A stretch of DNA of 64,000 nucleotides from Haladaptatus halobius (GTDB lineage Archaea; Halobacteriota; Halobacteria; Halobacteriales; Haladaptataceae): NCBI RefSeq assembly GCF_020618475.1, contig NZ_CP085335.1, positions 806,001-870,000 on the forward strand. The letters run 5' to 3'. Position numbers and translations under genes: made by a program. Positions 40,338-64,000 of this stretch are shown here, piece after piece. Numbering within the stretch: the first letter of the stretch is position 1; every line of letters starts with the position of its first letter. Under the pieces are notes generated by a model. That model searched no databases and had not been told where the DNA came from. It was given only the letters and a program-made list of their open reading frames with translations.

Positions 40338-40907
40338 ATGACAGATGGGGAAGCGGACGAATCGATTACTCGACGCGGGTTTATCCTCGGCTCTGCGGGT
40401 GCAGCGGCCGCCGGTGCGGCTGGAACGGCGGCGGCGCAGGAGGGTGGCTCCGGCGGCGGTGGCGGCGGAACGAAGACGGTGAAGGTCGGCCCCGGTGGAA
40501 ATCTGACGTTCGAACCGTCCGAACTGTCGATTCCGCCAGGGACGACGGTGAAGTGGGTCTGGGAGTCGAACACCCACAACGTCGTCCCCGAGAGCCAACC
40601 TGAAGGGTCGAGTTGGCAGGGGTCGAAAGGCGCACCGAACAAGACGTACGATTCGGGTCACACCTACTCGCACACGTTCGACACGCCCGGTACGTACGAG
40701 TACTTCTGCCAGCCGCACAAGTCCGCCGGTATGACCGGTTCGATAACCGTCGGAAGCAGTGGCGGTGGCTCGTCGAAACCGGCGGTTCCGTCCAGCGCCA
40801 AGACGCTCGGCATCGCCACCTCGGGCGCACTGGTGTTCACCCTCGGACTGGCGTACTTCTTCATGAAGTTCGGCGGCGACTACGGCGAGTACGGCGAGTA
40901 CGAGTAG
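40338..40907 (+). CDS. halocyanin (Tat-exported blue copper protein), membrane-anchored
   Basis: 189 residues. A Tat signal 'TRRGFILGSAGAAAAG' leads to a Gly-rich linker and a plastocyanin-like domain (about 45-137) with copper ligands His in 'NTHNVV', Cys/His in 'YEYFCQPHKSAGM' and Met. A C-terminal helix ('TLGIATSGALVFTLGLAYFF') anchors it outside the membrane. It carries electrons between the bc complex or other donors and an oxidase. The copper domain is nearly identical in DNA to that of the halocyanin at 63319. Confidence 0.9.
   Translation: MTDGEADESITRRGFILGSAGAAAAGAAGTAAAQEGGSGGGGGGTKTVKVGPGGNLTFEPSELSIPPGTTVKWVWESNTHNVVPESQPEGSSWQGSKGAPNKTYDSGHTYSHTFDTPGTYEYFCQPHKSAGMTGSITVGSSGGGSSKPAVPSSAKTLGIATSGALVFTLGLAYFFMKFGGDYGEYGEYE
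40470..40738 (+). repeat. halocyanin-domain inverted repeat, copy 1
   Basis: These 269 bases align without gaps to the reverse complement of 63515-63783 with 13 mismatches by hand count. Eleven of them fall in one 25-30 base patch; two stretches of about 98 and 99 bases are identical, including third codon positions. Confidence 0.85.
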
Positions 40908-41465
40908 TTACTCTGCGTCGTCCGGCGTATTGAAGTCGTGGAACGCGCGACCCTTCTCCGCGCTCAGGATGTCCAGCCCCGCGGCTGCACCGCCACCGAC
41001 CGAGATGGCGGCCTGAATCTTGTCCGCGCGCGCCGTCCACCCGGCGGCGTAGGCGTTCTCGACCGTCGTCGCGTTGTCCATATCGATTTCGACGGTGCCG
41101 TCGTCGGCCAGTTCACAGCCGAGCGCCTCGGCCATGTCGCGCGAGCGTCCGGTGGTGAAGACGACGTACTTGGCGTCGTACTCGTCGGAATCGGTGGTGA
41201 CGGTGAAGCCGTCGTCCGCCCGTTCGACGGCGGTTACTTCCCCCCCTTGCTTTCGCTCCGCGCTGTGGTCGTCCACTTGCTTGCGAGCGACCTCCATGAA
41301 CTCGTCGCCGGCGATGCTCTCGATGCCAAGGTAGTTGTAGAGCCACGCGGCGTGCATCGCCGTGTCGTCCGTGTCGAAGACGACCGTATCGAGGTCGTTT
41401 TTCGCGGTGAACAGTGCGGCGCTCAGTCCGGCGGGACCGCCGCCGATGACGGCTACGTCTGACAT
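40908..41465 (-). CDS. short FAD-dependent oxidoreductase (thioredoxin-reductase-like)
   Basis: 185 residues. N-terminal dinucleotide-binding loop 'VIGGGPAGLSAALFTAKND' and a second 'FTTGRSRDMAEAL', ending in 'AYAAGWTARADKIQAAISVG' as in thioredoxin reductases. There is no redox CxxC and no NADPH domain, so it is a truncated-architecture member. It abuts the halocyanin stop (convergent, one base apart). The electron acceptor is unknown. Confidence 0.75.
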   Translation of the reverse strand: MSDVAVIGGGPAGLSAALFTAKNDLDTVVFDTDDTAMHAAWLYNYLGIESIAGDEFMEVARKQVDDHSAERKQGGEVTAVERADDGFTVTTDSDEYDAKYVVFTTGRSRDMAEALGCELADDGTVEIDMDNATTVENAYAAGWTARADKIQAAISVGGGAAAGLDILSAEKGRAFHDFNTPDDAE

Positions 41466-41499
41466 ACGACGTCACGTAGCATTGACGCGTCTATAAAAC

Positions 41500-41976
41500 T
41501 CATCGCTCCAGCAACTCCTTCGTCTTTCGGTGGCGGTAGCGAAACATTGGTTCGAACCCGACCTTTGCGAGCGGACTCCCCGCCGTCCCGAGTGCCGGGA
41601 ACCGATACTCTACCCTGTCGCGCACCAGCGTTCGTCCGTCGCCGTCGTGGAACTGGTGGGTGTGTCGCCATTCCGGAAACGGACCGTCCCTCATCTCGTC
41701 TTGAAACAGGGCGGATCCGTCGCGCTCTTCGCGGCGGGTGATTTTGGACGTCCATCGCTGTCGCGGACCGACGCCGAGGGGTTGGAGCGACAGGCGAATC
41801 TCCGTGCCCGTCTCCAGCACGACCTGTTCCGGGTCGCCGTCCGGCCCCCGAATCCCTTCGACGCGGAGGTGCATCCATTCGGGGGTGAGCGCCTCCAGCC
41901 CGTCAGTGGCCGAGTAGAACCGCCACACGTCCTCGAACGGTGCGTCCACCCAGACCTCGCGCTGGTAGGTAGCCAT
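41500..41976 (-). CDS. SRPBCC (START-like) family protein
   Basis: 158 residues. 'REVWVDAPFEDVWRFYSATD' is the typical first strand/helix of the polyketide cyclase/START-like fold, and 'DRVEYRFPALG' leads to the long C-terminal helix ending 'FRYRHRKTKELLE'. Binds an unknown hydrophobic ligand in the family. A TATA-like ACTTTA lies about 26 bases upstream, opposite the GNAT promoter. Confidence 0.8.
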   Translation of the reverse strand: MATYQREVWVDAPFEDVWRFYSATDGLEALTPEWMHLRVEGIRGPDGDPEQVVLETGTEIRLSLQPLGVGPRQRWTSKITRREERDGSALFQDEMRDGPFPEWRHTHQFHDGDGRTLVRDRVEYRFPALGTAGSPLAKVGFEPMFRYRHRKTKELLER

Positions 41977-42064
41977 CGTCGGGACTTTCGTCGCCGACGT
42001 AAAGTTTCTTATGCGCGGTAGCCGGGACGACGATTTATCCCGGTTCGACGCGCACGTCGAAGGG

Positions 42065-42706
42065 ATGGTCTCCGTTCGACTCGCCGAGGCGGACGACGCG
42101 CCGCAGATCGCGGCCATCTACGCGCCCCTCGTCCGCGAGACGGTCGTTTCGTTCGAAACCGACCCGCCGGATGACGGGGAGATGGCGGAGCGAATCCTGA
42201 CGACGCTTCCGACGTACCCGTGGCTGGTCTGCGAAAGCGGCGACGAGATTCTGGGGTACGCCTATGCGTCCGCCCACCGCACGCGGGACGCCTATCAGTG
42301 GTCTGTGGACGTGTCGGTGTACGTCCACGGTGAGCACCGTCGCTCGGGCGTCGGGCGAGGCTTATACGAATCGTTGTTCGCTCTCCTCTGGCGACAGGGA
42401 TTCTACAACGCCTACGCGGGAATCGCGCTTCCCAATCCGGCGAGCGTCGGTCTCCACGAGTCGCTCGGCTTCGAGGAGGTGGGCGTCTACCGGAGCGTCG
42501 GGTACAAAAACGGGGCGTGGCGCGACGTCGGTTGGTGGCACCGACGACTGCGCTCCAGCGACCCCGACTCGCCAACCAACAGCAACTCGTCGGGGGGCCT
42601 CAACTCGTCGGACGACCCCGAGCCGCCGTCGTCGCTGACCGAACTGGAATCGATAACGAAGGCCGAGGCGATGGAACGAGGCGTGCGGTCGATACGGATC
42701 ACTTGA
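42065..42706 (+). CDS. GNAT N-acetyltransferase (phosphinothricin acetyltransferase-like)
   Basis: 213 residues. The GNAT core has 'DDAPQIAAIYAPLVRETVVS' and the acetyl-CoA loop in 'EHRRSGVGRGLYESLF', ending near 'YKNGAWRDVGWWHRRL' as in the PAT group. A Ser/Asn/Pro-rich tail of ~50 residues follows and is not part of the fold. ATG 42065 is chosen because TTTATC (42034-42039) is 26-30 bases before it; ATG 42011 would lie upstream of that box. Overlaps the convergent Lrp gene by 8 bases. Confidence 0.8.
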   Translation: MVSVRLAEADDAPQIAAIYAPLVRETVVSFETDPPDDGEMAERILTTLPTYPWLVCESGDEILGYAYASAHRTRDAYQWSVDVSVYVHGEHRRSGVGRGLYESLFALLWRQGFYNAYAGIALPNPASVGLHESLGFEEVGVYRSVGYKNGAWRDVGWWHRRLRSSDPDSPTNSNSSGGLNSSDDPEPPSSLTELESITKAEAMERGVRSIRIT

Positions 42707-43127
42707 GACGCTCTTGGAGGAACGACGGATGGGCCGCGGAGACGCCGTCGATGACGAGAATCTGGTCGCTTATCACACCCCCGACCGCGTCGCCGTTCGG
42801 CGCGCGAACCTCCGCCATCAGCATGTGGTCGCCGCTGCACGTGTACAGCGTCTCGATGTCGTCGAGCTCCTTGAGCGCCCGCGTCGCCTCCACGTAGCGT
42901 TCGCTTTCCACATCGATGCCGACGAGCGCGATGCTCTGACTGGAGAGCTTCTTCGGGTCTACTTCCGCCGAGTAGCCGACGATGACGCCCTCGTCTTCGA
43001 GCTTGTCGATGTACTTCCGAACGGTCGGCTTTGAAACCCCTGCGCGGTCTGCGATCTCCGAGTACGACGCCTGCGCGTCGTGCTCCAAAACACGAAGGAT
43101 ACGGTCTTCGGTCGATTCCGTGCTCAT
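42699..43127 (-). CDS. Lrp/AsnC family transcriptional regulator
   Basis: 142 residues. N-terminal HTH 'ASYSEIADRAGVSKPTVRKY' and C-terminal RAM/AsnC ligand domain ('ALVGIDVESERYVEATRAL'). Such regulators sense amino acids or related metabolites as dimers/octamers. It lies 105 bases downstream of korB on the same strand, so may follow 2-oxoacid metabolism. Its promoter (TATA-like TATTTTTT, about 43154-43161) contains a dyad, suggesting autoregulation. Confidence 0.85.
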   Translation of the reverse strand: MSTESTEDRILRVLEHDAQASYSEIADRAGVSKPTVRKYIDKLEDEGVIVGYSAEVDPKKLSSQSIALVGIDVESERYVEATRALKELDDIETLYTCSGDHMLMAEVRAPNGDAVGGVISDQILVIDGVSAAHPSFLQERLK

Positions 43128-43139
43128 GTTAGTGGGTTG

Positions 43140-43155
43140 TTTCCCGTACAGGAAA
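43140..43155. promoter_or_regulatory. palindromic site between TATA box and lrp start
   Basis: TTTCC, 6-base spacer, GGAAA, centred about 20 bases upstream of the Lrp ATG and overlapping the TATA edge. Geometry fits an autoregulatory Lrp operator. Confidence 0.35.
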
Positions 43156-43231
43156 AAATACCTTGCGAAGTGGAAAACACATTGTGGACCGCGAAAAGCT
43201 TGTACGAACCTCGGACGGAAGCGAAACGAGA

Positions 43232-44167
43232 TTACTTGTGGCGGTCGAGGATGTCGTAGCTCCGTTCCCACTCGTACTCGTCGTCGAAGTACCGCTCCGC
43301 CAGCGGCGTCTCCGGCATGTCACCCGTGGCTTGTTTCTCCTGCTGGTAGGACGGGCGGTCGTCGTCGATGTAGAAGCGGCCGGTGAGCACCGTCCCCTCG
43401 TAGAGTTCGTCCTCGGCCTCGTACATCATCTCGGCCGCCTCGCGTCGGTCGTTCACGTCGAAGTCGTAGTCGTCGCTGTCCTGCACGTCGATGTACGGGA
43501 CGTATTGCTTCGCGTCCTTGTTCCACGTCGGGCACTGCGTGAGGAAGTCGATGTGCGCGAACCCGTTGTGTTCCATCGCCTCGGCGAGGATCTGCTTCGC
43601 CTGATTCGGGTTGACCGCCGCCGTTCGGGCGACGTACGACGCACCCGAGGTGAGCGCGAGCGACAGTGGCCGAATCGGGCTCTTCGCGCTACCGTGTGGC
43701 TGGGTCTTCGACTTGTGACCCTTTGGGCTGGTCGGGGACGTCTGGCCCTTCGTCAGCCCGAAGATCTCGTTGTCGAAGACGATATAGGTCATGTCGTGGT
43801 TCTCGCGGGCGGTGTGCATGAAGTGGTTCCCGCCGATACCGTACCCGTCGCCGTCACCGCCCGCGGCGATGACTTCGATGTCCGGATTGGCGAGTTTGGC
43901 CGCGCGCGCGACTGGCAGGGCGCGTCCGTGGATGGAGTGGAAGCCGTAGCTCTGGAAGTAGCTCGACAGCTTCCCGGAACAGCCGATCCCTGTGACGAGT
44001 AGCGTCTCGTCCGGCGTTCGACCGACCTCGGGCATCGCCTGCTTCAGTGCCTTCAGGACGCCGAAGTCACCACAGCCCGGACACCACGTCGCCTGCGGTT
44101 CGAGACTCGGCGTGAACTCGTTCGAATCGATCTCTCGTTCTTCTCCGATTGCGTTGAATACACTCAT
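43232..44167 (-). CDS. korB: 2-oxoacid:ferredoxin oxidoreductase beta subunit
   Basis: 311 residues. Thiamine diphosphate motif 'GGDGDGYGIGGNHFMH' and the cysteine motif 'WCPGCGDFGVLKALKQAM'. A later Cys in 'GIGCSGKLSSYF' completes the cluster site. With KorA it oxidises pyruvate or 2-oxoglutarate to acyl-CoA using ferredoxin. ATG 44167 starts one base after the korA stop; a GTG at 44176 is possible. Substrate cannot be decided (kor/por). Confidence 0.9.
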   Translation of the reverse strand: MSVFNAIGEEREIDSNEFTPSLEPQATWCPGCGDFGVLKALKQAMPEVGRTPDETLLVTGIGCSGKLSSYFQSYGFHSIHGRALPVARAAKLANPDIEVIAAGGDGDGYGIGGNHFMHTARENHDMTYIVFDNEIFGLTKGQTSPTSPKGHKSKTQPHGSAKSPIRPLSLALTSGASYVARTAAVNPNQAKQILAEAMEHNGFAHIDFLTQCPTWNKDAKQYVPYIDVQDSDDYDFDVNDRREAAEMMYEAEDELYEGTVLTGRFYIDDDRPSYQQEKQATGDMPETPLAERYFDDEYEWERSYDILDRHK

Positions 44168-44168
44168 T

Positions 44169-46058
44169 TTAGTCACCCGTTGCGGATTCGATGTGCGTGT
44201 TGTAGTCGGTCTCGGCGTTCTCGTCTAGTCTCACCTCGAAGCCGTCGACGATCTCGGCGGGTTCGAATGGATTGCCGTCGTACTTCAGCAGGCTGAACAT
44301 CTTCTCGCCGAAGCGTCCCGTCTGGCCCTGAATGTGTCTGCGGAACTGCGCCGTGGCGTTCATCTCGACGACCAGCGCCTCGTCCACGTCTTCGAGGAAC
44401 TCGCTGACCTCGTCTTTCGGGAACGGAACCATGTCGCTGACGTTCATCGCCTTGACCGAGTGGTCGTCCTCGTTCAGTACGTCCACCGCTTCCTCGACGG
44501 CACCCTTCGTGCTGCCGAAGTTGAGGATGGCGTAGTCGGCGTTGTCGGGGCCGTAGACGGTCTGGTGTGACTCGTCCATCGCGTCGAGTTCCTCGCGGAT
44601 GGCGTCGAGTTTCGACATCCGGCGGTTCATCTGTGTGACGCGGTTGTTCGCGTCCTCGCTGATGTGCCCTGCCTCGTTGTGCTCGTTTCCGGACGCGAGG
44701 AAGTTGCCGCCCTTCTGTCCCGGCAGGGAGCGCGGGCTGACGCCGTCTTCGCCGTCGTAGCGGTAACGCTTGAACCGTCCCGCGAGACGTTCGCCCGCTT
44801 CGATATCCTCTTCGGTCACGACGCTTCCGATGTCCGGGTTCGGCTCGCGGTCGAACACCGACTCGGGAACCGTCTCGTGCCCGCCGGAGAGCTTCTGATC
44901 GTAGAGGATGATGGACGGAATCTGGTACTCGTAGGCGATTTCGAACGCCTTACGCGTCTGGATGTACGACTCGCGCGCGTCACCCGGCGCGAAGACGACA
45001 CGGTTCGAGTCGCCTTGACTCGTGTAAAGTACGTGTTCTAAGTCACCCTGCTCGGGTTTCGTCGGCATCCCCGTCGAGGGTCCTGCGCGCATCGACTCGA
45101 CGAGCACGAGCGGCGTCTCGGTGATCTCCGCGAGACCGAGCGGTTCGGACATGAGCGCGAACCCGCCGCCGGACGACCCGCTTATCGCCTTCGCGCCCGC
45201 GTGGCTTGCACCGACGGCGAGACACGCAGCGGCGATCTCGTCCTCGACCTGCTCGGAGATACCTCCAAGGTCGGGGAGGTGTTGGGTCATGATCGTGAAC
45301 ACGTCGGTCCACGGCGTCATCGGATACCCCGAGATGAATCGGCATCCTTCGTCGATTGCGCCGTACGCGATTCCGTGACTACCGGAGATGAGCACCGGCT
45401 CTTCGTCGTGTTCGCTCTGGGAAACCGTCACGCCGACGTCCGTGTCGTAGTTCTCCGAAACGTCCTCGTAGGCTTCCCGGAGGATCTCGAGGTTCGGTTC
45501 GAGGATCTTCTCCGGCATCGCCTCGCTCATCAGCTCTTCGACGACGTCGAGGTCGAGGCCGATGATGGCACAGGTCGCCCCGACCCCTGCGGTGTTCCGC
45601 ATGACTTCCCGGCCGTGCTCCTTGGCGAGTCCGCGAAGATCCAAGTCGAAGACGTGCCAGTTGTTCTCCTCGACGCGCTCCTCGAAGTTCGGAATGTCGT
45701 CTGTGTCGAGCAGTCCAGCGTCGTAGATGATTACGCCGCCTTCTCGTAGCTCGTCCAAGTTCTCCGTTAGCGGTTTGATCTCTTCGTTGCCGTAGTAGGC
45801 TTCTTCCTGTGGGTTCCGCGCGAAGCTGTCACCGAGTGCGAGGAGGAAGTTGTAGTTGTCTCCCCGTGATTTCACTTCGTGATCGGCCGCGCGAATCTCC
45901 ACGTAGGTGTGGCCGCCGCGAATGCGCGACGGATAGTGTCGATGCGTGAATACGTTCAACCCCGATCGCATCAGGGCTTTTGCGAAGTTCTGGCTCGTCG
46001 AGTCGATTCCGTCCCCGGAACCCCCTGCGACTCGCCAAATTAGTTCTTCATCCGTCAT
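44169..46058 (-). CDS. korA: 2-oxoacid:ferredoxin oxidoreductase gamma-alpha fused subunit
   Basis: 629 residues. The N-terminal gamma domain (about 1-195, 'RVAGGSGDGIDSTSQNFAKA') is fused to the alpha pyrimidine-binding domain ('GSHGIAYGAIDEGCRFISGY', 'VLVESMRAGPSTGMPTKPEQ'). A Shine-Dalgarno GGAG (46067-46070 on this strand) precedes the ATG by about 8 bases. First gene of korA-korB. It supplies reduced ferredoxin, a plausible donor for the NuoE/F/G-less complex I. Confidence 0.92.
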   Translation of the reverse strand: MTDEELIWRVAGGSGDGIDSTSQNFAKALMRSGLNVFTHRHYPSRIRGGHTYVEIRAADHEVKSRGDNYNFLLALGDSFARNPQEEAYYGNEEIKPLTENLDELREGGVIIYDAGLLDTDDIPNFEERVEENNWHVFDLDLRGLAKEHGREVMRNTAGVGATCAIIGLDLDVVEELMSEAMPEKILEPNLEILREAYEDVSENYDTDVGVTVSQSEHDEEPVLISGSHGIAYGAIDEGCRFISGYPMTPWTDVFTIMTQHLPDLGGISEQVEDEIAAACLAVGASHAGAKAISGSSGGGFALMSEPLGLAEITETPLVLVESMRAGPSTGMPTKPEQGDLEHVLYTSQGDSNRVVFAPGDARESYIQTRKAFEIAYEYQIPSIILYDQKLSGGHETVPESVFDREPNPDIGSVVTEEDIEAGERLAGRFKRYRYDGEDGVSPRSLPGQKGGNFLASGNEHNEAGHISEDANNRVTQMNRRMSKLDAIREELDAMDESHQTVYGPDNADYAILNFGSTKGAVEEAVDVLNEDDHSVKAMNVSDMVPFPKDEVSEFLEDVDEALVVEMNATAQFRRHIQGQTGRFGEKMFSLLKYDGNPFEPAEIVDGFEVRLDENAETDYNTHIESATGD

Positions 46059-46113
46059 AATTGTAACTCCTGGCCTCCCCGGCCTAGTGTATTACGGTAG
46101 TAGCGCAAGGTGG

Positions 46114-46145
46114 TAAAGCCTTTGCCATAGATTAGCAAGGGTTTA
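46114..46145. promoter_or_regulatory. imperfect inverted repeat upstream of korA
   Basis: TAAAGCCTTTGC, 9-base spacer, GCAAGGGTTTA: two arms of 11-12 bases with about one mismatch and one bulge, 56-87 bases upstream of the korA ATG. It covers the place expected for the TATA/BRE of korA, so it could be an operator. Confidence 0.3.
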
Positions 46146-46293
46146 TCGTGATAGATGGGGTCTAACGGTTGATTTCGCGGTTTTCGAAGATGGAAATGTC
46201 TCGTTTCTTAATGATGGTTTATAGCTCAATGAACACCCTCTGTCCTACCCCCTTATCTCGGGATTTGGGTTACTATGTTAGAGTAATTACCAT

Positions 46294-46961
46294 CTAAACT
46301 TTATTCTCATCTAAAATAGAATTTTCACTATTCAAAGAACTTTCATGAAGGATTTCAATGATTATCCAGCCTAAATTTAGAGCTCCACTAAATGTCCACC
46401 CAACCGCAGCTGTTAATATCCCGACGATAAAGGTTGCCAAAGCAATAAAATAGAGAAACTTCCAGAAGTTACTTTGGTCAAGGAGAATTCCTAAGGTAGC
46501 GAAGAGGAGCATTCCAAACACAAATTCAAAAAACCTGTGGTAAGTGACTCCTTCCCTGGTATGATTGGTGTTGTTCCTTCGTTCATCCCTTGTAATTGGC
46601 CCGTGATAACCTTTCCAGTGAACGCCAGAATAACTGCTCCAATCAGGAATAGAGGATAAAAATTAACATTATCAAAGGGGATGTTGACGATTTCAACTTC
46701 CAATACATTTTCCACCACATTGTTAATAGAAAATAGACCGACAGCAACTCCACCAAGCCAACACAAAGACAACCCAAAATTCGATATGCGTCTTCCTATT
46801 GGAATCCACCGAGTTTTCTCCATCTTATTTTTCAAATGGTGTAGAATTGCAATAAAAAGGTACGCATCAACAAGTGGGAGAATTGAGAGAAGTGATCGAA
46901 TATAGATATGATCTTTATCTTTAGATTTTCCCTTCGTATAATCACATCTTAGCATCAGCAA
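46294..46961 (-). pseudogene. AT-rich multi-helix membrane protein, one frameshift
   Basis: The frame from 46961 encodes about 135 residues with three or four helices ('SLLSILPLVDAYLFIAILHH', 'PLFLIGAVILAFTGKVITG'), then runs to a stop. The next frame continues as 'REGVTYHRFFEFVFGMLLFA' and two more helices to TAG at 46294. Restoring one A near 46570 (CCAATC to CCAAATC) gives 222 residues. No family recognised. Codon use is AT-rich and foreign to the neighbourhood. Confidence 0.5.
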
Positions 46962-46979
46962 TGCTATTTGCGAACACTA

Positions 46980-47105
46980 TTACGATAACAAAATAGTGTC
47001 AGGAACCGCCAATTTGACAACCGTTCCTGTAATTAGGGACACATCTTCTCCGTATAGTGACGCATATACCAGGAGGATAATTCCACCACCGAAAAAGAAT
47101 ACGAC
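46980..47105 (-). pseudogene. truncated C-terminal part of an AT-rich membrane protein
   Basis: A minus-strand open frame of 41 codons with no start, bounded upstream by TAA at 47106-47108. It reads 'VVFFFGGGIILLVYASLYGE' and ends TAA at 46980-46982, 18 bases before the next AT-rich gene. It looks like the last helix and tail of a longer protein cut at the island edge. Confidence 0.35.
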
Positions 47106-47225
47106 TTATACTCCCGAACCTTCGGCGAGAAACTCAGCGGCAGTCACAAAATCGGTGAAATTCCAATCGCGTATCCGATACTCGTCCTGTTCGGTGTTGC
47201 AGTGCTCGCCCAACGATTGCGCTGA
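47061..47225 (+). pseudogene. 3' remnant of a plus-strand membrane or surface protein
   Basis: A start-less frame from the stops at 47055-47060 to TGA 47223-47225, reading 'EYDLYSRTFGEKLSGSHKIG' and then a terminal helix 'IAYPILVLFGVAVLAQRL' with basic end. Base composition from about 47106 is that of the host. It appears to be the C-terminus of a gene interrupted at the island boundary. Confidence 0.35.
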
Positions 47226-47240
47226 GGACGAACGATTTCT

Positions 47241-47468
47241 TTATTCTCCTTTTCCACCGGCGTCTTTCGTCCGAAGTATTTCGCGCATGTTGATGTAGAT
47301 ATCTTTCGGAGACGTATTCTCGTCGGGGTCGAACAGATCGCTCACTCGGTAGAGCATCGCCGCGACCTGCTTGCTCTCGCTGCTGTCACCGCGAACGTCG
47401 TCGGCGATCTCGCGGAGGATCGCCACGCGCTCCGCGTCCGGTTCGAACGATTCCGTCTCGCGTGCCAT
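47241..47468 (-). CDS. 75-residue charged helical protein
   Basis: From ATG 47468. Mostly helical and charged ('ERVAILREIADDVRGDSSES', 'DPDENTSPKDIYINMREILR'). No recognised motif. It starts two bases after the Mrp ATPase stop and is clearly in the same leftward operon; small conserved partners of this kind are seen beside haloarchaeal ApbC genes, so a link to iron-sulfur delivery is possible. Confidence 0.65.
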   Translation of the reverse strand: MARETESFEPDAERVAILREIADDVRGDSSESKQVAAMLYRVSDLFDPDENTSPKDIYINMREILRTKDAGGKGE

Positions 47469-47470
47469 AC

Positions 47471-48505: not shown

Positions 48506-48657
48506 GGTGACGGCTAGGGTGTGACCTGTCGATAAGACTTGTGAACCGGAAGAAAGGCTGATAAACCGGAGGACTCGATTCCGTCGTCGGAGGCAGTAGT
48601 TTCGCTCCGTGGCTGGCGTAAATAGATTCAGTTACGTTCCGATGGTGTTCTCCCACG

Positions 48658-48690
48658 AGTTTAAGAATACTCGTCCGAAAGAGGTGTGTG
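48658..48690 (+). promoter_or_regulatory. moaA promoter and ribosome binding site
   Basis: GTTTAAGAA near 48658-48666 is TATA-like; GAGGTG at 48681-48686 lies 4-5 bases before ATG 48691. The upstream in-frame GTG (48688) overlaps this spacing and is not preferred. Confidence 0.4.
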
Positions 48691-49650: not shown

Positions 49651-49693
49651 GTCGGCGATAAAGTTCATAGGGGCTGGCTACGCCCACTCTCGT

Positions 49694-50751: not shown

Positions 50752-50826
50752 CCTCCGGTAGGATGAGTTGCAGACAACTGTAGGGATACGTGTCCCGAGT
50801 CCGGAAGGGCGAACGTAAGAGTATGT

Positions 50827-50911: not shown

Positions 50912-50927
50912 CTCCAACCTATCAACC

Positions 50928-52341: not shown

Positions 52342-52344
52342 CAC

Positions 52345-53371: not shown

Positions 53372-53401
53372 CTTCAGTTCTCAGTACTTGGAGGAAGCAG
53401 C

Positions 53402-54578: not shown

Positions 54579-54590
54579 GGTGGTACAACC

Positions 54591-54791: not shown

Positions 54792-54973
54792 TGGCTCAAC
54801 AACACTACTCCCGATACGAGAAAGCTCGAATCCTCGGCGCGCGCGCACTGCAAGTGTCTTACGGCGCTCCGGTGCTCATCGACACCCAGGAGTCACAGCC
54901 GATCCTCATCGCGGCAGAGGAGTACGACGCGGGCGTGCTCCCGTTCACCGTCCGTCGTGGAGAGGAGCGATGA
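54791..54973 (+). CDS. rpoK: DNA-directed RNA polymerase subunit K
   Basis: 60 residues, homologue of Rpb6/omega: '[20 protein letters not shown]' and the C-terminal '[10 protein letters not shown]'. ATG 54791 (sharing a base with the rpoN TGA) is preferred over GTG 54788. Overlaps the enolase start by 4 bases. Confidence 0.95.
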
Positions 54974-56175: not shown

Positions 56176-56945
56176 GCGAAAACGAATCTGAACAGGTAGA
56201 AGACGAAGCGGACGGTTTCGACGCCGCGGAAGAGGAAGTCGACGCGGAAGCCACCGGACAGGCCGGTGCGGAACCCGACGTCGACCCCGACGAAGATGTC
56301 GCCGCACAAGCGGACGAGACCGAAGAAGAACCACGATTCGACGAGGACGTGCTCGGCGACGAGGAGGCGGATCTCCTCATCCCCGTCGAGGACTACCTCG
56401 GCGCCGGTGTCCACATCGGTACGCAACAGAAGACCCAGGACATGGAGCGGTTTATCCACCGCGTCCGAACCGACGGACTGTACGTCCTGGACGTGAGCAA
56501 GACCGACCAGCGAATCCGCACGGCGGCAGACTTCCTCGCCAACTACAACCCCGAGCAGATACTGGTCACGTCCTCGCGCCAGTACGGTCGCTTCCCGGCG
56601 GAGAAGTTCGCCGATGCCGTGGGCGCGCGCGCTCGCACCGGCCGGTTCATCCCCGGCACGCTGACGAACCCGAAGTACGACGGCTACATCGAACCCGACG
56701 TGGTCGTCGTTACCGACCCCATCGGCGACGCGCAGGCGGTCAAGGAGGCCATCACGGTTGGCATCCCCGTCATCGCCATGTGCGACTCGAACAACAACAC
56801 GAGCAACGTTGACCTCGTCGTCCCGACGAACAACAAGGGTCGCAAGGCGCTGTCGGTCGTCTACTGGCTGCTGGCCAACGAGACGCTCGACCGCCGCGGT
56901 GCCGAACCCGCTTACTCGCTCGACGACTTCGAGAGCGAGATTTAA
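56172..56945 (+). CDS. rps2: 30S ribosomal protein S2
   Basis: 257 residues (uS2/SA). The first ~65 residues are an extremely acidic extension not present in bacterial S2. The core has '[20 protein letters not shown]', '[20 protein letters not shown]' and '[20 protein letters not shown]'. Last gene of the operon. Confidence 0.96.
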
Positions 56946-57035
56946 TCGCCGAATTTTCGAAACCGGATTTGCGTTGTTTTACGGATTAGCTGAGGAATTA
57001 CGGTGTTGAGCGCCTTCTACCATCAACTCGACAGC

Positions 57036-57851
57036 TCAAAGCTGATACTCCGCGAAGTCGCGCCCAAGTTCGTATTCCGTATCGGCCGCGGCCGATCGCA
57101 GCTCCGCTGTCGACATCCGTTGGAAGTGTTCGTTGCAGTTCACCAGCACCGTCCGGTCGGCGCTCGCCGACTCCAGCGCAGATCGCAACTCCGCCTCCGA
57201 ACCGTGCCCCTCGGCGCGAAACAGCGCCACACCCTCTGCGAACAGAAGGTCTGCGTTCTCGTACTCCCGCCCCGCTTCGCGGTCGGGGAGGAACCCCCGT
57301 ACGTCGGGCGCGTAAACGACCTTGGCGTCGTCGTGGTAGACGGCGAACCCGAGCGTGTCGAACATCGGTCGCCCGTGATCGACCGGAAACGGTACGACTC
57401 GCATGTCGCCCACTCGAACCGCATCGCCGTGCGCGAGCAGGTTCAGGTCGAGGTGCTTTGCGACGTGGGCATTCGAGTAATTGAGGTGAAGACACGCCGT
57501 CGGAGTGAGAAAGACTTCGAAGCTCGCTTTGCGAGGGCGCTCGTCCGAAGCGACCGCTCCGGGGTTGAGCATGTGTTCGTCGAACGCCATAGCAGCGTGG
57601 TTGAGTTCGTGAAGGCCGCCAGCGTGATCGAAGTGATGGTGGGTGACGAAGAACGCGTTCACGTCCGGCATTTCAATCGCGTGGAGCTGTTCTTTCACAT
57701 CGGGAGACACGTCGAGGACGACTGTCGCACCCGCCATTTCGACCAGTAGACCCGGCCGTCGTCGTCTTTCACTCGTCCGACAGTACTCGCAGTCGCACAG
57801 CGGGGCCGGGACGCCGAGGGCGTCGCCGGATCCGAGCAGCGTGACGTCCAT
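57036..57851 (-). CDS. MBL-fold metallohydrolase (PhnP-like)
   Basis: 271 residues. It starts 'MDVTLLGSGDALGVPAPLCD' with a 'CDCEYC' cysteine pair as in PhnP. The zinc motif HxHxDH is in 'VTHHHFDHAGGLHEL', with later ligands in 'PFPVDHGRPMFD'. PhnP is a cyclic phosphodiesterase; haloarchaeal substrate unknown. It lies on the opposite strand between rps2 and the mevalonate kinase gene, so is not part of that operon. Confidence 0.85.
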   Translation of the reverse strand: MDVTLLGSGDALGVPAPLCDCEYCRTSERRRRPGLLVEMAGATVVLDVSPDVKEQLHAIEMPDVNAFFVTHHHFDHAGGLHELNHAAMAFDEHMLNPGAVASDERPRKASFEVFLTPTACLHLNYSNAHVAKHLDLNLLAHGDAVRVGDMRVVPFPVDHGRPMFDTLGFAVYHDDAKVVYAPDVRGFLPDREAGREYENADLLFAEGVALFRAEGHGSEAELRSALESASADRTVLVNCNEHFQRMSTAELRSAAADTEYELGRDFAEYQL

Positions 57852-58103
57852 GCGAAGAGGTTGACACGATGCGCGAAGACGGTGTCGGTCGTGCAGGCGA
57901 CCAGTCGTACCGGATCAGTGCGACCGTGATATTTCGAATCCGCCCGAACCCACCGAATTTTGCGAGGAACGTACGTGACGAGTAAATTCCTCCGCGAGGG
58001 GGATTCGGAATAGACCGAGCACAGCGAAACCAGCATGTCCGGGTGCAGATCGATTTCGCTTCATTCGAAAAAAGTGATACCCCCGGCTCACCGAGAGTAC
58101 GGC

Positions 58104-59087
58104 ATGATAGTTTCGAGCGCCCCGGGGAAGGTGTATCTATTCGGGGAACACGCCGTCGTTTACGGCGAACCCGCAGTGCCCTGCGCCATCGAACGTCGGG
58201 CGACGGTCACGGTCGAATCTCGCGATGACGACCGCCTCCGCGTCAATGCGAAGGATCTCAGCCTCAACGGGTTCACGGTCGAGTACAGCGGTGGAACCGA
58301 TGAGACACCCGACGTGAACGTCTCCGAATCGCTCGTCCGTGCCGGAGTGGGGTACATCGACGCCTCGATCGAACAGGCCCGCGACGCGACCGACACGCCG
58401 GACGCCGGTTTCGACATCACCGTCGAGAGCGACATCCCGTTGGGTGCCGGACTCGGCTCCTCGGCGGCGGTGACGGTGGCGACCATCGACGCCGCGAGCC
58501 GCGAATTGGGCGTCGAACTCCCGACCGATGAGATCGCAGACAGGGCGTACCGTGCGGAACTCGCGGTACAAGACGGGGAAGCTTCGCGCGCGGACACCTT
58601 CTGCTCGGCGACCGGCGGGGCGGTCCGGGTGGAGGGTGACGACTGTCGAGCTATCGAGGCTCCCGACCTCCCTATCGTCGTCGGCTTCGACGGCGGCGCA
58701 GGCGATACGGGAAAACTCGTGGCGGGCGTTCGCGCGCTCCGCGAGAAGTACGAGTTCGCCACCGACACAGTCGAGAGCGTCGGCGACATCGTCCGACGAG
58801 GTGAACGGGTGTTGGCCGAAGGAGACGTTGACGAACTCGGACGACTGATGGACTTCAATCACGGCTTACTGGAGGCGCTCGGCGTCTCCTCGCGCTCGCT
58901 AGACAACATGGTTTGGGCGGCCCGCGACGCGGGCGCGCTCGGCGCGAAACTGACCGGTGCGGGCGGCGGCGGCTGCATCGTCGCTCTCGACCCGACGGAC
59001 GAGACGAAGACCGCACTCCGGTTCACGCCGGGCTGCGAGGACGCCTTTCGCGCGGAACTCGACACCGAAGGGGTGCGCGTAGAATGA
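58104..59087 (+). CDS. mvk: mevalonate kinase
   Basis: A 327-residue GHMP kinase. 'VSSAPGKVYLFGEHAVVYGE' at the start, the phosphate loop 'IPLGAGLGSSAAVTVATIDA' and 'KLTGAGGGGCIVALDP' near the end. Phosphorylates mevalonate for archaeal lipid synthesis. ATG 58104 gives the standard N-terminus; upstream codons to 58035 are not conserved in character. Overlaps the next gene by 4 bases. Confidence 0.94.
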   Translation: MIVSSAPGKVYLFGEHAVVYGEPAVPCAIERRATVTVESRDDDRLRVNAKDLSLNGFTVEYSGGTDETPDVNVSESLVRAGVGYIDASIEQARDATDTPDAGFDITVESDIPLGAGLGSSAAVTVATIDAASRELGVELPTDEIADRAYRAELAVQDGEASRADTFCSATGGAVRVEGDDCRAIEAPDLPIVVGFDGGAGDTGKLVAGVRALREKYEFATDTVESVGDIVRRGERVLAEGDVDELGRLMDFNHGLLEALGVSSRSLDNMVWAARDAGALGAKLTGAGGGGCIVALDPTDETKTALRFTPGCEDAFRAELDTEGVRVE

Positions 59088-59824
59088 GTCTCACTGTGCT
59101 CAAACTCGGCGGGAGCGTCATCACGGACAAAGACCGCGCCGACACCCTGGACGGCGCGACCCTTGATCGCGTCGCCGACGCGGTGAGCGAGGCCGACGCG
59201 GAGAACCTCGTGCTCGTCCACGGCGGCGGGAGTTTCGGTCACCACCACGCGAGCCGACACGACGTCTCGACGACGGTGGGGAGTCACGACGCGGGTGCCA
59301 CGATGGATATCCACGGCGCGATGAAGACGCTGAACGAGTTCGTCCTCGCGCGCCTCCATGAACGCGACGTCCCCGCCGTCCCGGTGCATCCGTTCTCCGC
59401 CGCAGCACGCGATTCGAACGCGAATCTCGAACTCCCGACGAAACAGGTCGAAACGATGCTCGGCGAATGGTTTGTCCCCGTTCTGCACGGCGACGTCGTG
59501 GCCCACGCCGGAGCGGGTATCACGGTCGTCAGCGGAGACGAACTCGTCGTCTCGGTCGCCAACCAGCTCGACGCCGACCGAGTCGGCTTCTGTTCGACGG
59601 TGCCCGGCGTCTTGGACGAGGACGACTCGGTGATCCCCGAAATCACCGCCTACGAACAGGTCGCGGACGTGCTCGGCGAGAGCGAATCGACGGACGTGAC
59701 CGGCGGTATGGCGGAGAAGGTTCGTGCGCTTCTCGAACTCGGCGCTCCAGCCTCCATCTTCGGCCCGGACGACGTTGCCGCGTTTCTCGCCGACGAGACG
59801 CCGGGGACGCGCATCGACGGCTAG
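59084..59824 (+). CDS. ipk: isopentenyl phosphate kinase
   Basis: A 246-residue amino-acid-kinase-fold enzyme. 'VLKLGGSVITDKDRADTLDG' and the diagnostic His in 'VHGGGSFGHHHASRHD'. Makes isopentenyl diphosphate from isopentenyl phosphate in the archaeal mevalonate route, directly coupled to mvk by ATGA overlap. Confidence 0.93.
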   Translation: MSLTVLKLGGSVITDKDRADTLDGATLDRVADAVSEADAENLVLVHGGGSFGHHHASRHDVSTTVGSHDAGATMDIHGAMKTLNEFVLARLHERDVPAVPVHPFSAAARDSNANLELPTKQVETMLGEWFVPVLHGDVVAHAGAGITVVSGDELVVSVANQLDADRVGFCSTVPGVLDEDDSVIPEITAYEQVADVLGESESTDVTGGMAEKVRALLELGAPASIFGPDDVAAFLADETPGTRIDG

Positions 59825-59873
59825 TTGGAGTTACGGTTAGTGGACATTCGAGTACCGCGGAGAAAAAGCCGTG

Positions 59874-60128
59874 TTACGTCCGCGCTCGCCGGAACTTCCG
59901 CATGGCGGGGACGAGAACCCAGAAAAACACCATGGCGGAGATGGCGAACCAGAAGAACGCTTCGCGCAGGAGGATGGCGAGACTGCCGTACATATCCAGG
60001 TTTCCCGGAACCTCGCCGACGAGTTGGGTGTCCTCGAAGCCGGGGGTCGTGTACCACCCCGACAGAACCATCCAGGCGAGACCTGCGGCCGTGGCGATAC
60101 CGAGTCCCTTTACGAATTCGTCAGCCAT
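59874..60128 (-). CDS. two-helix membrane protein of the bc cluster (DUF7314-like)
   Basis: 84 residues: helices at about 8-28 and 50-72 ('EAFFWFAISAMVFFWVLVPA') with a loop 'YTTPGFEDTQLVGEVPGNLD'. Last gene of the leftward cytochrome bc operon; overlaps the preceding gene by 8 bases. The DUF name is recalled. Likely an accessory subunit, by position only. Confidence 0.7.
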   Translation of the reverse strand: MADEFVKGLGIATAAGLAWMVLSGWYTTPGFEDTQLVGEVPGNLDMYGSLAILLREAFFWFAISAMVFFWVLVPAMRKFRRART

Positions 60129-60498
60129 TGTTCGATGGTTCGTCGGAGCCGTCTTTAGACTTTCCCATTCCCTCGGCGCGAAATCGCGTGGAGAAGGCGT
60201 ACACCGCGGCTCCGGCCGCGATGAGCGCGAGCCCGAAGATGGCGAGCGGGAAATCGACTTTCGGAAGCGGGACGGTCGCTCGCTCGGTCGCCACGTCCAG
60301 CGCGATGAACCCGCCGACGACCGTAACGACGGCGAAAAGCGTCGAAAAGACCGTCACCGCCTTGTACACGCGAAGCGGGACGACCACGTCGCGGGAACGG
60401 AGCCCGGATGAATCGGCGCTGTCGTCGCTCTTCTCGTCACTCGCGTCGTCGTCGAACACCGAATAACTAGTCTCGAACTCGTCGTCACGACCGGACAT
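60121..60498 (-). CDS. two-helix membrane protein of the bc cluster (DUF7315-like)
   Basis: 125 residues. The first ~45 residues are very acidic and disordered, followed by helices at about 45-68 ('VYKAVTVFSTLFAVVTVVGG') and 84-105. A short hydrophilic tail ends it. Between the cytochrome b C-terminal gene (15-base gap) and the 84-residue protein. Family recalled, role inferred. Confidence 0.7.
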   Translation of the reverse strand: MSGRDDEFETSYSVFDDDASDEKSDDSADSSGLRSRDVVVPLRVYKAVTVFSTLFAVVTVVGGFIALDVATERATVPLPKVDFPLAIFGLALIAAGAAVYAFSTRFRAEGMGKSKDGSDEPSNNG

Positions 60499-60513
60499 GA
60501 GAAAAGAACTCGC

Positions 60514-61272
60514 TCACTTCGGCGGTCGCAGGCGGTAGTACCGTCGGTTCAGGCTGAACATGTAGCCTTCCCGCATTGACTTCAACACCGCGTACGCCAT
60601 CGTTCCCGCCACGATGGGAATGAGAAACGTCAGGTCGAACGCGAGGTGTGCGTTGATGGGGAGCAGGTTTTTGATGGACAGCGCGCTGATGGTGATCGCG
60701 AACGTGACGCCGAAGACGCCGACCGCCGCCCAGAACGGTTGCTCGACCGGGCGTCGGGCGCTCCCTTTGTTCAGGAACGGGACGATAGCGATTATACCGA
60801 CGACGATGACGTTCGCCACGACGCCGTAGGTTCGATCCGCCATCAGCTTGTCACCGCCGAGGATGGCGAGTTCGGGGTTGAGCGGCCCCAGCTTCAGCAG
60901 GCCGAACGACCAGTAGAGATACCAGTCGGGTAGGATGATCGCCGGGGTCGAACTCGGGTCGGCGGGCGGGCCGAGGTGCGGCGGGAGCGTCGCCGAGAGA
61001 AACAGGATCATCCCGACGAAGAAGCTCGTGATCGAGAGATTACGGATCATCTCGTGGGGCCACGTCGGGAACGCCAGCACGTCGCGCTCGACGTAGCTGG
61101 ACTCCTGTCGGAGGTCTTGGTCTTCGCGGCGGGCGCGCTCGAAGTACTCGTAGGTCAGCCGAGAGAGACCTTGCGTACGCTGTTTGCGCTCCAGCCACGA
61201 GGGGGTCTCGTCGTCCGGCGGGACGATGCCGGTGCCGCTTCCGTCGGTTTTTGGTTCGTTTTCGTCGGTCAT
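60514..61272 (-). CDS. petD: cytochrome b, C-terminal part (subunit IV-like)
   Basis: 252 residues. A hydrophilic N-terminus of ~75 residues precedes helices carrying 'AIILPDWYLYWSFGLLKLGP', the PDWY variant of the quinol-site PEWY motif. Corresponds to helices E-H of mitochondrial cytochrome b. Follows petB after 5 bases. The split b6/IV arrangement is the rule in haloarchaea. Symbol by analogy. Confidence 0.87.
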   Translation of the reverse strand: MTDENEPKTDGSGTGIVPPDDETPSWLERKQRTQGLSRLTYEYFERARREDQDLRQESSYVERDVLAFPTWPHEMIRNLSITSFFVGMILFLSATLPPHLGPPADPSSTPAIILPDWYLYWSFGLLKLGPLNPELAILGGDKLMADRTYGVVANVIVVGIIAIVPFLNKGSARRPVEQPFWAAVGVFGVTFAITISALSIKNLLPINAHLAFDLTFLIPIVAGTMAYAVLKSMREGYMFSLNRRYYRLRPPK

Positions 61273-61277
61273 TGGTA

Positions 61278-62081
61278 TCAGTGTGGTTCGGCGATGCCCT
61301 GCATCCAGACGATGCCGATGTGGACGGCGATGAGCGTCGTCACGACGAATGGCAGCAGGAATACGTGCAGGATGTACATTCGTTGGAGCGTCGATTGACT
61401 CAGGCTGAAGCCGCCGAACAGCAGTTGAGCGACCCATTCGCCGATGAGCGGAACCGAGAGACTCATCTCGACGCCGATCTGTCCGGCCCAGAACGCGAGC
61501 TGATCCCACGGGAGCAGGTAGCCGGTGTAACCGAACACCATCGTCAGGCTGATGAGGAGGATGCCGATTATCCAGTTGACTTCGCGCGGTTCCTTGTACG
61601 CGCCCGTGAAGTAGACGCGGAGCATGTGGAGGAACACCGCGGCGACCATCACCTGTGCCGACCAGCGGTGGATACTCCGGAGCATGAACCCGAAGTTGAG
61701 GTCGGTCATGATCAACGTCAGTTGTTGATACGCTGCCGATGGGTCTCCTTGGGCGGCCGCCGTCGATGGCGAGTAGTAGAAGCCGAGTAACGCGCCGCTG
61801 ATGGCGGCAACCACGTACGCGATGGTCGAGAAACTACCGAGCGCGTACAGCGGATACCAGTACCAGAACTTGTTGTCCAGCCCGTACTGTTCGGTGTGGC
61901 TTTTCGGCATCTGGAGGTTGACGCGGTAGTACAGCGTCTCCAGTATCTCCAGATAATCGACGATGCGGAACCGGCGATCCATCCATATGAGCGTCGTGAG
62001 GAACGTGCTCTCGATGGGCGTGAGGTCTTTCTCACGGAGCCACTCGCCGTGGTCGTGCTCGTCTTTTCGTTCGATACTCAT
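61278..62081 (-). CDS. petB: cytochrome b, N-terminal part (b6-like)
   Basis: 267 residues. Four haem-binding helices with the paired His in 'MLRSIHRWSAQVMVAAVFLH' and 'YILHVFLLPFVVTTLIAVHI'; 'FGYTGYLLPWDQLAFWAGQI' is the conserved quinol-site region. Carries two b haems. One base separates its ATG from the Rieske stop. Symbol by analogy. Confidence 0.9.
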   Translation of the reverse strand: MSIERKDEHDHGEWLREKDLTPIESTFLTTLIWMDRRFRIVDYLEILETLYYRVNLQMPKSHTEQYGLDNKFWYWYPLYALGSFSTIAYVVAAISGALLGFYYSPSTAAAQGDPSAAYQQLTLIMTDLNFGFMLRSIHRWSAQVMVAAVFLHMLRVYFTGAYKEPREVNWIIGILLISLTMVFGYTGYLLPWDQLAFWAGQIGVEMSLSVPLIGEWVAQLLFGGFSLSQSTLQRMYILHVFLLPFVVTTLIAVHIGIVWMQGIAEPH

Positions 62082-62082
62082 T

Positions 62083-62928
62083 TTACTCGTCCTCCGGCCG
62101 TGGCAGCGCCACGAACGATTCCTCGATGATGCTGAAGGGGTCGTACACCGACTGGTGGCACGGGCAGTAGATTTCATCCGCCGCGCCGAACTTCGCGGAT
62201 CCGGCGATGCCTTTGAACGAGGGCACGCAACAGAAGTGCGTACATTTGTTCAGATGGGCGATGAATCCTTTTTGGGTGGTCGCTTTGAGCCACTCGCTGT
62301 TGTTCGCTATCTCTTCGACGTTCGTGCTTCGAATCACTTCGACAGTCAGCGTCTGGCTCGCGGGCACGTCCTGTGAGCGCCACGTCACGCTCGCCGGCTT
62401 CCCTAAACCGGACTTACCGATTCCGTTGCCCCACGTTTTGTAGTCGCTGAAGTCATCGACGTGGACTTTGTTGCCGGGTTTGACCTCGCTAGATTGCCAA
62501 TCGTACCCGCCTTCCTTGTATCGGAAGTAGTTGTCCATGTCGGCCTCTGGGTCGACACCCTTGTACGTCTGGACGCCGCAGTACTGGAACCACTCCACGG
62601 AGTATGTGAGACCCGCGATCTTTGTCTCGGCGACCGTCACTTCTCGTCCCTGCACCGTCTTCGTCTCGGGTTTTGGGAACAACCCTTTCAGATATCCTTC
62701 GCCGTCGATTTCGATCGGAATCTGGGGCATCCCACGCGGTGCGGGGCCGTCCGTGTTTTCCACGCCCATGAACTTCGTGATACCGCCACCTTCGCCGGTC
62801 GGAGACGTAGCCGTCTTGAGCGCGGCGGCCGTGGCGGTGCCGAGGCCTGCGAGCGTCGCGCTTCCGACGACGCCTTTGACGAAACGGCGGCGACCTGTGC
62901 TTTCCGGATATTTGTCGTCTTCTGCCAT
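62083..62928 (-). CDS. petA: Rieske iron-sulfur protein
   Basis: 281 residues with a Tat-type N-terminal anchor 'TGRRRFVKGVVGSATLAGLG'. The [2Fe-2S] ligands are in 'LNKCTHFCCVPSF' and 'IYCPCHQSVYDP' (C-x-H ... C-x-x-H). The region between (~60-200) is a larger insert than in bacterial Rieske proteins. It takes electrons from quinol to halocyanin. Symbol by analogy with other bc clusters. Confidence 0.92.
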   Translation of the reverse strand: MAEDDKYPESTGRRRFVKGVVGSATLAGLGTATAAALKTATSPTGEGGGITKFMGVENTDGPAPRGMPQIPIEIDGEGYLKGLFPKPETKTVQGREVTVAETKIAGLTYSVEWFQYCGVQTYKGVDPEADMDNYFRYKEGGYDWQSSEVKPGNKVHVDDFSDYKTWGNGIGKSGLGKPASVTWRSQDVPASQTLTVEVIRSTNVEEIANNSEWLKATTQKGFIAHLNKCTHFCCVPSFKGIAGSAKFGAADEIYCPCHQSVYDPFSIIEESFVALPRPEDE

Positions 62929-62931
62929 TGT

Positions 62932-63318
62932 TTATCGTTTGTAGTAGGGGTACACTGCTCGTTTGAAATGATCCCACGCGTCACCGAACGACTCGGTTCC
63001 GTACTGTTCTTCTTCGCGCACGTAGAGGTCTTCCCACTTGCGCCGACGCTTCTTGACGATCATCACATCGGGGAGGAACTCCTTTCGGTACAGCATGAGA
63101 ACGAATGCGAGGTCGATGAAGATGACGGCGAGGATGCCGCCGAGGTACATGTTGCCGACCTCCGAGAGACCCCAGCCGTTGAGTAGGCCGTAGGTGAACA
63201 GGCCGACGAACACGACCTCGATGATCGTCAACAGGACGATGGCGATGGCTGCGGTCGTGCTCTCGCGGGCCGGTTCGTATCGGTGAATGTCGCCGTAGGT
63301 GCTTCCTGACGATGACAT
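62932..63318 (-). CDS. two-helix membrane protein of the bc cluster (DUF7318-like)
   Basis: 128 residues. Helices at about 22-45 ('AAIAIVLLTIIEVVFVGLFT') and 58-78, then a basic 'KKRRRKWEDLYVREEEQYGT' tail facing the cytoplasm. Sits between the halocyanin and Rieske genes with gaps of 0-3 bases. Conserved in haloarchaeal bc clusters as far as I recall; no known activity. Confidence 0.72.
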   Translation of the reverse strand: MSSSGSTYGDIHRYEPARESTTAAIAIVLLTIIEVVFVGLFTYGLLNGWGLSEVGNMYLGGILAVIFIDLAFVLMLYRKEFLPDVMIVKKRRRKWEDLYVREEEQYGTESFGDAWDHFKRAVYPYYKR

Positions 63319-64000
63319 CTATCTGTTCCCTCCGCTGGTGTGTGCGGACTCGCCGTACTTCAGGAAGAAGAACGTGTAGATGATCGAGACGACCATCATC
63401 AGAATCGTCGCGATTCCGACGTAGTGCGCCTGAAACGGCACGCCCATCTCTTCGGGGTCTGCTTCCTCGGCGGCACCGCCGCCACCGCCGCCACCGCCGC
63501 CGACCTGGAGCGTCCCGGTCATACCGGCGGACTTGTGCGGCTGGCAGAAGTACTCGTACGTACCGGGCGTGTCGAACGTGTGCGAGTAGGTGTGACCCGA
63601 ATCGTACGTCTTGCTCGGTGCGCCCGGCGTTCCCTTCCAACTCGACCCGCTGGGTTGGCTCTCGGGGACGACGTTGTGGGTGTTCGACTCCCAGACCCAC
63701 TTCACCGTCGTCCCTGGCGGAATCGACAGTTCGGACGGTTCGAACGTCAGGTTTCCGCCGGGGCCGACCTTCACCGTCTTCGTGGGGCCGCCACCGCCGC
63801 CGCCGCCACCGCCACCGCCTTGTGATTTGTTCCCGCTAGACTGGTTGCCACTCGACTGGTTGCCACCGCCCGACGTCTGGTTTCCGCCAGACCCGTTCCC
63901 GCCGGACTGGTTTCCACCTCCCGACGTGGTCGTCTGCTGCGCACCAGCGGGTGCCGCCGCCGCGGCAGTTCCGCCAGCAACGCCGCTGGCCGCCAGTAGA
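63319..64000 (-). CDS. halocyanin, first gene of the bc cluster (5' end outside window)
   Basis: Incomplete at the window edge. The visible part begins inside a Tat-like hydrophobic, Ala-rich signal. A ~45-residue Gly/Asn/Gln/Ser linker with repeated 'GGGNQS'-type units and a run of eleven Gly follow. The copper domain has ligands in 'NTHNVV' and 'YEYFCQPHKSAGM'. After a second Gly run a membrane helix ends the protein. Electron carrier for the adjacent Rieske/cytochrome b complex. Confidence 0.9.
   Translation of the reverse strand, partial: LLAASGVAGGTAAAAAPAGAQQTTTSGGGNQSGGNGSGGNQTSGGGNQSSGNQSSGNKSQGGGGGGGGGGGPTKTVKVGPGGNLTFEPSELSIPPGTTVKWVWESNTHNVVPESQPSGSSWKGTPGAPSKTYDSGHTYSHTFDTPGTYEYFCQPHKSAGMTGTLQVGGGGGGGGGAAEEADPEEMGVPFQAHYVGIATILMMVVSIIYTFFFLKYGESAHTSGGNR
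63515..63783 (-). repeat. halocyanin-domain inverted repeat, copy 2
   Basis: Partner of 40470-40738 in opposite orientation, 269 bases, no gaps, 13 mismatches. Homology stops abruptly at both ends, at the start of the copper domain and just after the ligand Met region. Confidence 0.85.

Follow-up and report, generated by a model that had tools for sequence, protein, structure and literature searches.

A 64,000-nucleotide stretch of the Haladaptatus halobius genome (contig NZ_CP085335.1, positions 806,001–870,000 of the forward strand; hereafter the window) carries two halocyanin genes, A and B, that share a nearly identical, inverted copper-domain sequence. Comparison of the two genes across haloarchaea shows repeated copying of the copper domain (about 90 residues, in some genomes extending into the linkers) between the two loci, while the start and the C-terminal anchor of each gene keep their own histories. 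The process responsible is very probably ectopic gene conversion without crossover between A and B, recurrent, order-wide and limited to this one domain. In window coordinates, the two genes and their parts are:

40338–40907 (+): gene A, an orphan halocyanin of 189 amino acids (twin-arginine-type start, linker, copper domain, linker, anchor)
40470–40738 (+): tract in common with gene B (256 of 269 bases)
40601–40639 (+): unhomogenised patch in the tract, 11 differences
40797–40877 (+): A-type C-terminal anchor (AKTLG..FMKFGG), unhomogenised
63319–64000 (−): gene B, a halocyanin heading a cytochrome b operon; its start lies 17 bases past the window end, and the whole protein has 232 amino acids
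63515–63783 (−): tract in common with gene A
63349–63429 (−): B-type C-terminal anchor (AHYVGIA..LKYGE), unhomogenised

The two tracts align without gaps over 269 bases with 13 differences and contain exact runs of 98 bases (40503–40600) and 99 bases (40640–40738), precisely where an earlier interpretation made from the letters alone (the sequence-only reading) had placed them. That reading had also described most of the differences as clustered within 25–30 bases; the clustering stands, with 11 of the 13 in a single patch, but the patch measures 39 bases. Within the genome, A and B are by far the best pair for this tract, the next match reaching 79% over 200 bases. Matching polymorphic sites are strung together in the window pair beyond what chance gives: among 2000 shuffles of site order so long a run was rare, with p 0.007 for the domain alone and 0.0005 (the minimum reachable with 2000 shuffles) for domain plus tail.

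Both proteins have a common layout: a twin-arginine start, a glycine-rich linker, a copper domain belonging to PF00127 (matches at 4.2e-20 and 3.5e-19), a second glycine-rich linker and a C-terminal anchor. Outside the matching domain they are clearly unlike, in their starts, their linkers and their hydrophobic anchors, as the sequence-only reading had observed. Residues H80, C124, H127 and M132 are conserved in 13 of 13 aligned A proteins, and H114, C158, H161 and M166 in 13 of 13 aligned B proteins; we take these to be the His, Cys, His and Met copper ligands. The prediction for both A and B is a type I copper protein tethered to the membrane. The window copies score 68.8 and 65.2 bits against the NCBIfam halocyanin domain TIGR03102, below its curated cut-off of 93.8, consistent with their sequence-based assignment to a short, plastocyanin-like domain form, and the solved structures nearest to A by sequence are plastocyanins. 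The same genome encodes two-domain halocyanins with 68–79% DNA identity to the tract (L083 3391–4074, C1:1574398; L084 3907–4713, C2:161038), which may be participants in domain exchange. Second genes with a full-length match to the A-type profile occur in two Haladaptatus genomes (G004:C2:266283–266870 and G003:C26:217642–218220). The source genome, at 7.28 Mb in nine contigs and with a contamination estimate of 9.5%, is larger than the other genomes in the samples of relatives and of the order.

In a DNA search of 59 relatives, many genomes of the family had a pair of strong matches, usually separated by about 9 to 64 kb where both lay on one contig, and a first set comprised A and B from 24 genomes of the family, that of H. 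halobius included, plus one lone A. The DUF7318 gene served as a marker of B; of 145 genomes sampled from the order, 110 have a match, which is strong in 107. An extended set holds A and B from 104 haloarchaeal genomes under nine family codes, 26 of them from the family of H. halobius. Among the genomes with strong DUF7318 matches, G038, G064, G066, G119, G129, G152 and G160 were left out (G064 gave no A candidate), and the pairs of G005, G006, G026 and G027 come from outside the order sample. A was picked by profile and tail, and B by its position before DUF7318 and, for the last 39 genomes, also by a B profile. Genome G115 holds a third, B-like halocyanin gene (L178; G115:C105:4500–8000), which combines a B anchor with a short-form domain and lies on a contig other than that of A and B of G115, whose domains have the other form; it was excluded from the counts over 81 and 104 genomes and counted with B in one earlier comparison.

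Across the 104 genomes only the soluble domain is homogenised, and the membrane part stays distinct. The copper domains of A and B from the same genome have a nucleotide identity of 0.827 and agree at 2961 of 4225 fourfold sites (0.701), compared with 0.587 and 119459 of 251914 (0.474) for A and B of different genomes. At the anchor, A and B of one genome (0.538; fourfold 246/515, 0.478) are no closer than A and B of different genomes (0.540; fourfold 0.484). The proposal of the sequence-only reading that conversion is confined to the copper domain is thereby supported, silent sites included. In 99 of the 104 genomes the own domain pair has a higher fourfold identity than that genome averages with foreign partners, and in 39 the own A and B domains are closer to each other than to every orthologue of both copies, a relation never seen for the tail (0/104). 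The best B for A is that of the same genome in 60 cases and the best A for B in 65, against 0 and 3 for the anchor. Own domain identity is at least 0.80 in 71 genomes, at least 0.90 in 27 and at least 0.95 in 13; exact A/B blocks of at least 60 bases are present in 26 and of at least 100 bases in 15, the longest spanning 271 bases (G006). In the first family set, 14 of 24 genomes had a copper-domain pair more alike than either copy and any orthologue; for the anchor this held in 0 of 24.

Separate trees of domain and flank, a check put forward with the sequence-only reading, separate these histories. The anchor tree of the 104 genomes resolves one A and one B clade (100/99), with 1 label change and no sister pair of A and B from one genome (0/104). 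In the domain tree the A and B labels are mixed, with 71 changes, 55 of them forced by starred branches, where shuffled labels give about 70; A/B sister pairs number 35 of 104 and are spread over eight family codes, and a single A clade is rejected (approximately unbiased test, p-AU 4.4e-5). Trees of the H. halobius family (25 A, 24 B) give 20 label changes for the domain and 1 for the anchor, and there a single A clade for the domain is rejected at p-AU 1.35e-58. Since A and B tails fall into one clade each and the two loci have different neighbours, the duplication predates the species split: A and B are paralogues of long standing that separated before the sampled families of the order diverged.

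Within the family, the codon differences between A and B of the same genome (26 genomes) number 382 synonymous to 227 non-synonymous, and those between each copy and its nearest orthologue 1040 to 644 (pairs may count twice); silent and replacement codons have therefore been homogenised alike. A run-length test on the same 26 genomes gave p < 0.01 in 22 for domain plus tail. In the window domain (282 bases), 21 sites oppose both window copies to both copies of H. salinisoli (G007), and none opposes both A to both B, a zero that holds by construction inside the exact runs. The exact runs contain 18 of these 21 sites, which dates the copying of those tracts to after the split from H. salinisoli. 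The patch at 40601–40639 carries private bases, 7 in A and 3 in B, and either escaped overwriting in that copying or changed afterwards. Alternatively, the patch could be a docking loop held different in A and B by selection, and K or D in A with P in B is found in several genomes of the family. This is unlikely: in a label-swap test over domain columns differing in at least five of the 26 genomes, the lowest p was 0.007 and the loop column had 0.014, neither significant once the number of columns was corrected for; the loop is variable everywhere, and the private bases of the window patch fall in both copies.

The domain also differs in form among lineages: the window has the short plastocyanin-like form, and other forms bear a WEWTG-like loop and in many cases an N-terminal extension as well. 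A regular expression for the extension of the long form proved unreliable, with false calls (one version, over 81 genomes, found it at both loci in 10, at neither in 66 and in B only in 5, namely G100, G105, G114, G146 and G153), so form was scored by the loop motif [WF]EW[TS]G instead. Both loci have the motif in 36 genomes, both are without it in 65, and B alone has it in 3 (G100, G105, G146), giving agreement in 101 of 104; this count is uncorrected for relatedness, and the motif is a crude measure that scores G114, G153, G134 and G155 as agreeing though their domains differ. Genus g8 includes both loop types, and in each of the 9 genomes examined there A matches B in type. Where the domain type changed, both loci mostly changed, which is most simply explained by the arrival of a new form at one locus and its later spread to the other.

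Foreign or other paralogous domains do reach these genes, for the entire domain form can switch from genus to genus and even inside a genus. That would suit repeated import of the domain by both loci from other haloarchaea rather than from each other. Two independent arrivals, however, would rarely be near-identical at silent sites, and in G118 the A protein matches only A, B and one far weaker sequence (E 1.4e-22). A better fit is arrival at one locus with subsequent conversion of the other, and we regard separate import at both as very improbable. Less probable still is that functional constraint or parallel selection, without exchange of DNA, makes the domains alike. The copper ligands and many core positions are invariant, as constraint would have it, but the domains diverge strongly between species and yet agree inside a genome. 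The sequence-only reading had named equally high silent-site identity between the copies of different genomes as the mark of constraint; the fourfold sites instead follow the genome (0.701 within, 0.474 between). Synonymous and non-synonymous differences are lowered in the same ratio in the H. halobius family, and the exact blocks of 100 bases or more in 15 genomes likewise speak against constraint. A single recent conversion in this lineage only, which was the sequence-only reading's own account, has next to no probability: the 18 sites in the exact runs common to both window copies and unlike both G007 copies would agree with it, but the same pattern recurs across genera and over nine families, and the 104-genome set rules it out.

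Several results weigh against recurrent conversion of this breadth. The run-length test was not significant in 4 of the 26 family genomes for domain plus tail; on the domain alone, 17 genomes reached p < 0.05, 12 of them p < 0.01. Among the 104 genomes, five have no silent-site excess (G055, G099, G109, G116, G134), in 65 the partner copy of the same genome is equalled or surpassed in closeness by some orthologue, and own domain identity is below 0.80 in 33, the lowest values being those of G155 (0.524), G134 (0.552), G098 (0.593), G146 (0.610), G148 (0.611), G142 (0.619) and G116 (0.634). In the family domain tree, window A and B are not exact sisters, B grouping with the G007 pair at 95/77. 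The bootstrap of the 104-genome domain tree had not settled, the corresponding tail tree comprises 81 columns only, and the purity of its A clade arises partly by construction, A having been picked by tail. Finally, A and B have clearly different domain forms in G100, G105, G146, G114, G153, G134 and G155: the long form is present in B alone in G114 and G153, and the best A candidates of G134 and G155, which may not be true A genes, carry yet another copper domain. The mismatched genomes look like intermediates or escapes.

In 87 genomes both genes are on one contig, with 5.8 kb to 1.7 Mb between them; in the other 17 they are on different contigs, and there mean domain identity is 0.801. Distance and identity are uncorrelated among the 87 same-contig pairs (Spearman rho −0.001, p 0.99), as among an earlier 67 (Spearman 0.08, p 0.50), and in G118 the domains are 98.9% identical while 596 kb apart. 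By orientation, mean identity over 81 genomes is 0.862 for convergent (20), 0.809 for direct (39) and 0.816 for divergent pairs (8), and 0.820 for pairs on different contigs (14). In all 104 genomes the B gene has a short B-type start and a B tail and the A gene has an A tail and no B-type start; starts and tails are never mixed, so no crossover product is seen. Recombination between the inverted copies had been suggested to flip the 23-kb segment between them. Alignments over 300 bases gave no such inversion in six Haladaptatus relatives (G002 left out): the stretch from about 35–37 kb to 66–68 kb matches each of the six in a single orientation, save for A/B cross-matches.

The neighbours of A and B differ. 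B is followed by DUF7318, a probable Rieske protein and cytochrome b, and A lies between an MTH865-like gene and, in Haladaptatus, a flavin adenine dinucleotide (FAD) oxidoreductase:

62932–63318 (−): DUF7318 gene (PF24002) next after B, whose position it marks
62083–62928 (−): probable Rieske protein (CTHFC..CPCHQS motif)
61278–62081 (−): cytochrome b, N-terminal part (PF00033)
60514–61272 (−): cytochrome b, C-terminal part (PF00032)
40908–41465 (−): FAD/pyridine-nucleotide oxidoreductase behind A, adjoining A in Haladaptatus loci
40297–40315 (+): 19-base block, 22 bases 5' of the A start
39453–39710 (−): MTH865-like gene near A (PF07747), present in many loci of the family
38040–39158 (+): E1 dehydrogenase component on the outer flank of A (PF00676)

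The probable Rieske protein had no Pfam match at E 1e-3 despite its motif, which we take to be a Rieske signature. The block before A (AAACCAAAGTATTCAGTAC) occurs exactly (first base A or G) once per genome in seven genomes of four families, always before A, and variants precede A in further genomes; it is probably an unusually conserved promoter. A shared regulon was considered and rejected, as the exact block stands only before A in the seven genomes. In the H. halobius genome one copy with two mismatches lies elsewhere, and a control pattern also matched once in that genome. A search for RNA families over 40100–41000 returned none at E 0.1.

The pair shows the features of long-lasting recurrent concerted evolution in the sense of PMC6053082: paralogues nearer than orthologues, at least five species, an old duplication and synonymous sites behaving alike. 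The available text of that survey covers 69 prokaryotic orders and 26 genes, such as tuf, psbA and amoA-C, whose paralogues are likewise nearer within than between species, silent sites too; the 7 archaeal genes it gives include none listed from haloarchaea. The closest parallel is mtrA-1/mtrA-2 of Methanococcales and Methanomicrobiales, described in the accessible part of PMC4632066 as two paralogues whose soluble domain has been homogenised over the long term at the amino-acid and nucleotide level and whose membrane parts are distinct. The mtrA genes, however, are operon neighbours, and mtrA-2 gained another membrane part by fusion, whereas A and B share no operon, lie kilobases to more than 1 Mb apart, keep both old anchors and have had the domain form itself replaced, mostly in both genes. 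What is new relative to mtrA is the dispersal of the loci, the breadth and the coupled change of domain form. A literature search, whose coverage mostly excluded subscription papers, found no report of conversion in the A/B halocyanin pair; a single paper joins halocyanin with gene conversion, and there the conversion term stands only in a reference title.

A plausible engine is indicated by the very efficient intermolecular gene conversion of the polyploid haloarchaeon Haloferax volcanii, although in the available portions of those studies it equalises alleles of one locus over long tracts, and A and B are two loci with domain-length tracts (PMC11276520, PMC8223754). The copying of the halocyanin domain would thus be ectopic gene conversion without crossover, aided by polyploidy and efficient recombination and perhaps taking place between genes on different genome copies. 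Tracts would stop in the glycine-rich linkers, where homology runs out; since linkers and anchors share little sequence, the domain rather than the whole gene is converted. Selection may also keep the anchors apart and would purge crossovers, since these would flip or remove the region carrying the cytochrome b operon. It may further favour equal domains, if A and B, the latter on the cytochrome b complex, have docking partners in common or exchange electrons; tethered carriers acting in series would benefit from equality, as would a pair that uses one docking site.

Halocyanin is regarded as the probable one-electron carrier between a bc-type complex and terminal oxidases (PMC8305020), the protein family and the place in the chain to which A and B correspond; the available text of that source mentions neither paired genes nor conversion. 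A further reading, less likely than not, makes A and B an obligate matched pair, in which B on the cytochrome b complex would pass electrons to A by contact of like copper domains, or both would dock on one fast-changing partner. The domain would then be a shared cassette that has to be changed at both loci, and conversion would keep the pair matched even when the incoming form is quite different.

The halocyanin pair is a rare case of very long-lasting, one-domain concerted evolution between dispersed genes of the respiratory chain, and because it can be traced over about 100 species, its rates, direction and selection are measurable. Orthology is misassigned in trees and annotations that rely on these halocyanin domains; A and B are told apart by anchor and gene neighbourhood, not by the copper domain. 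For haloarchaeal respiration, the matched domains offer a testable hint about the poorly known path of electrons from the cytochrome b complex to the oxidases.

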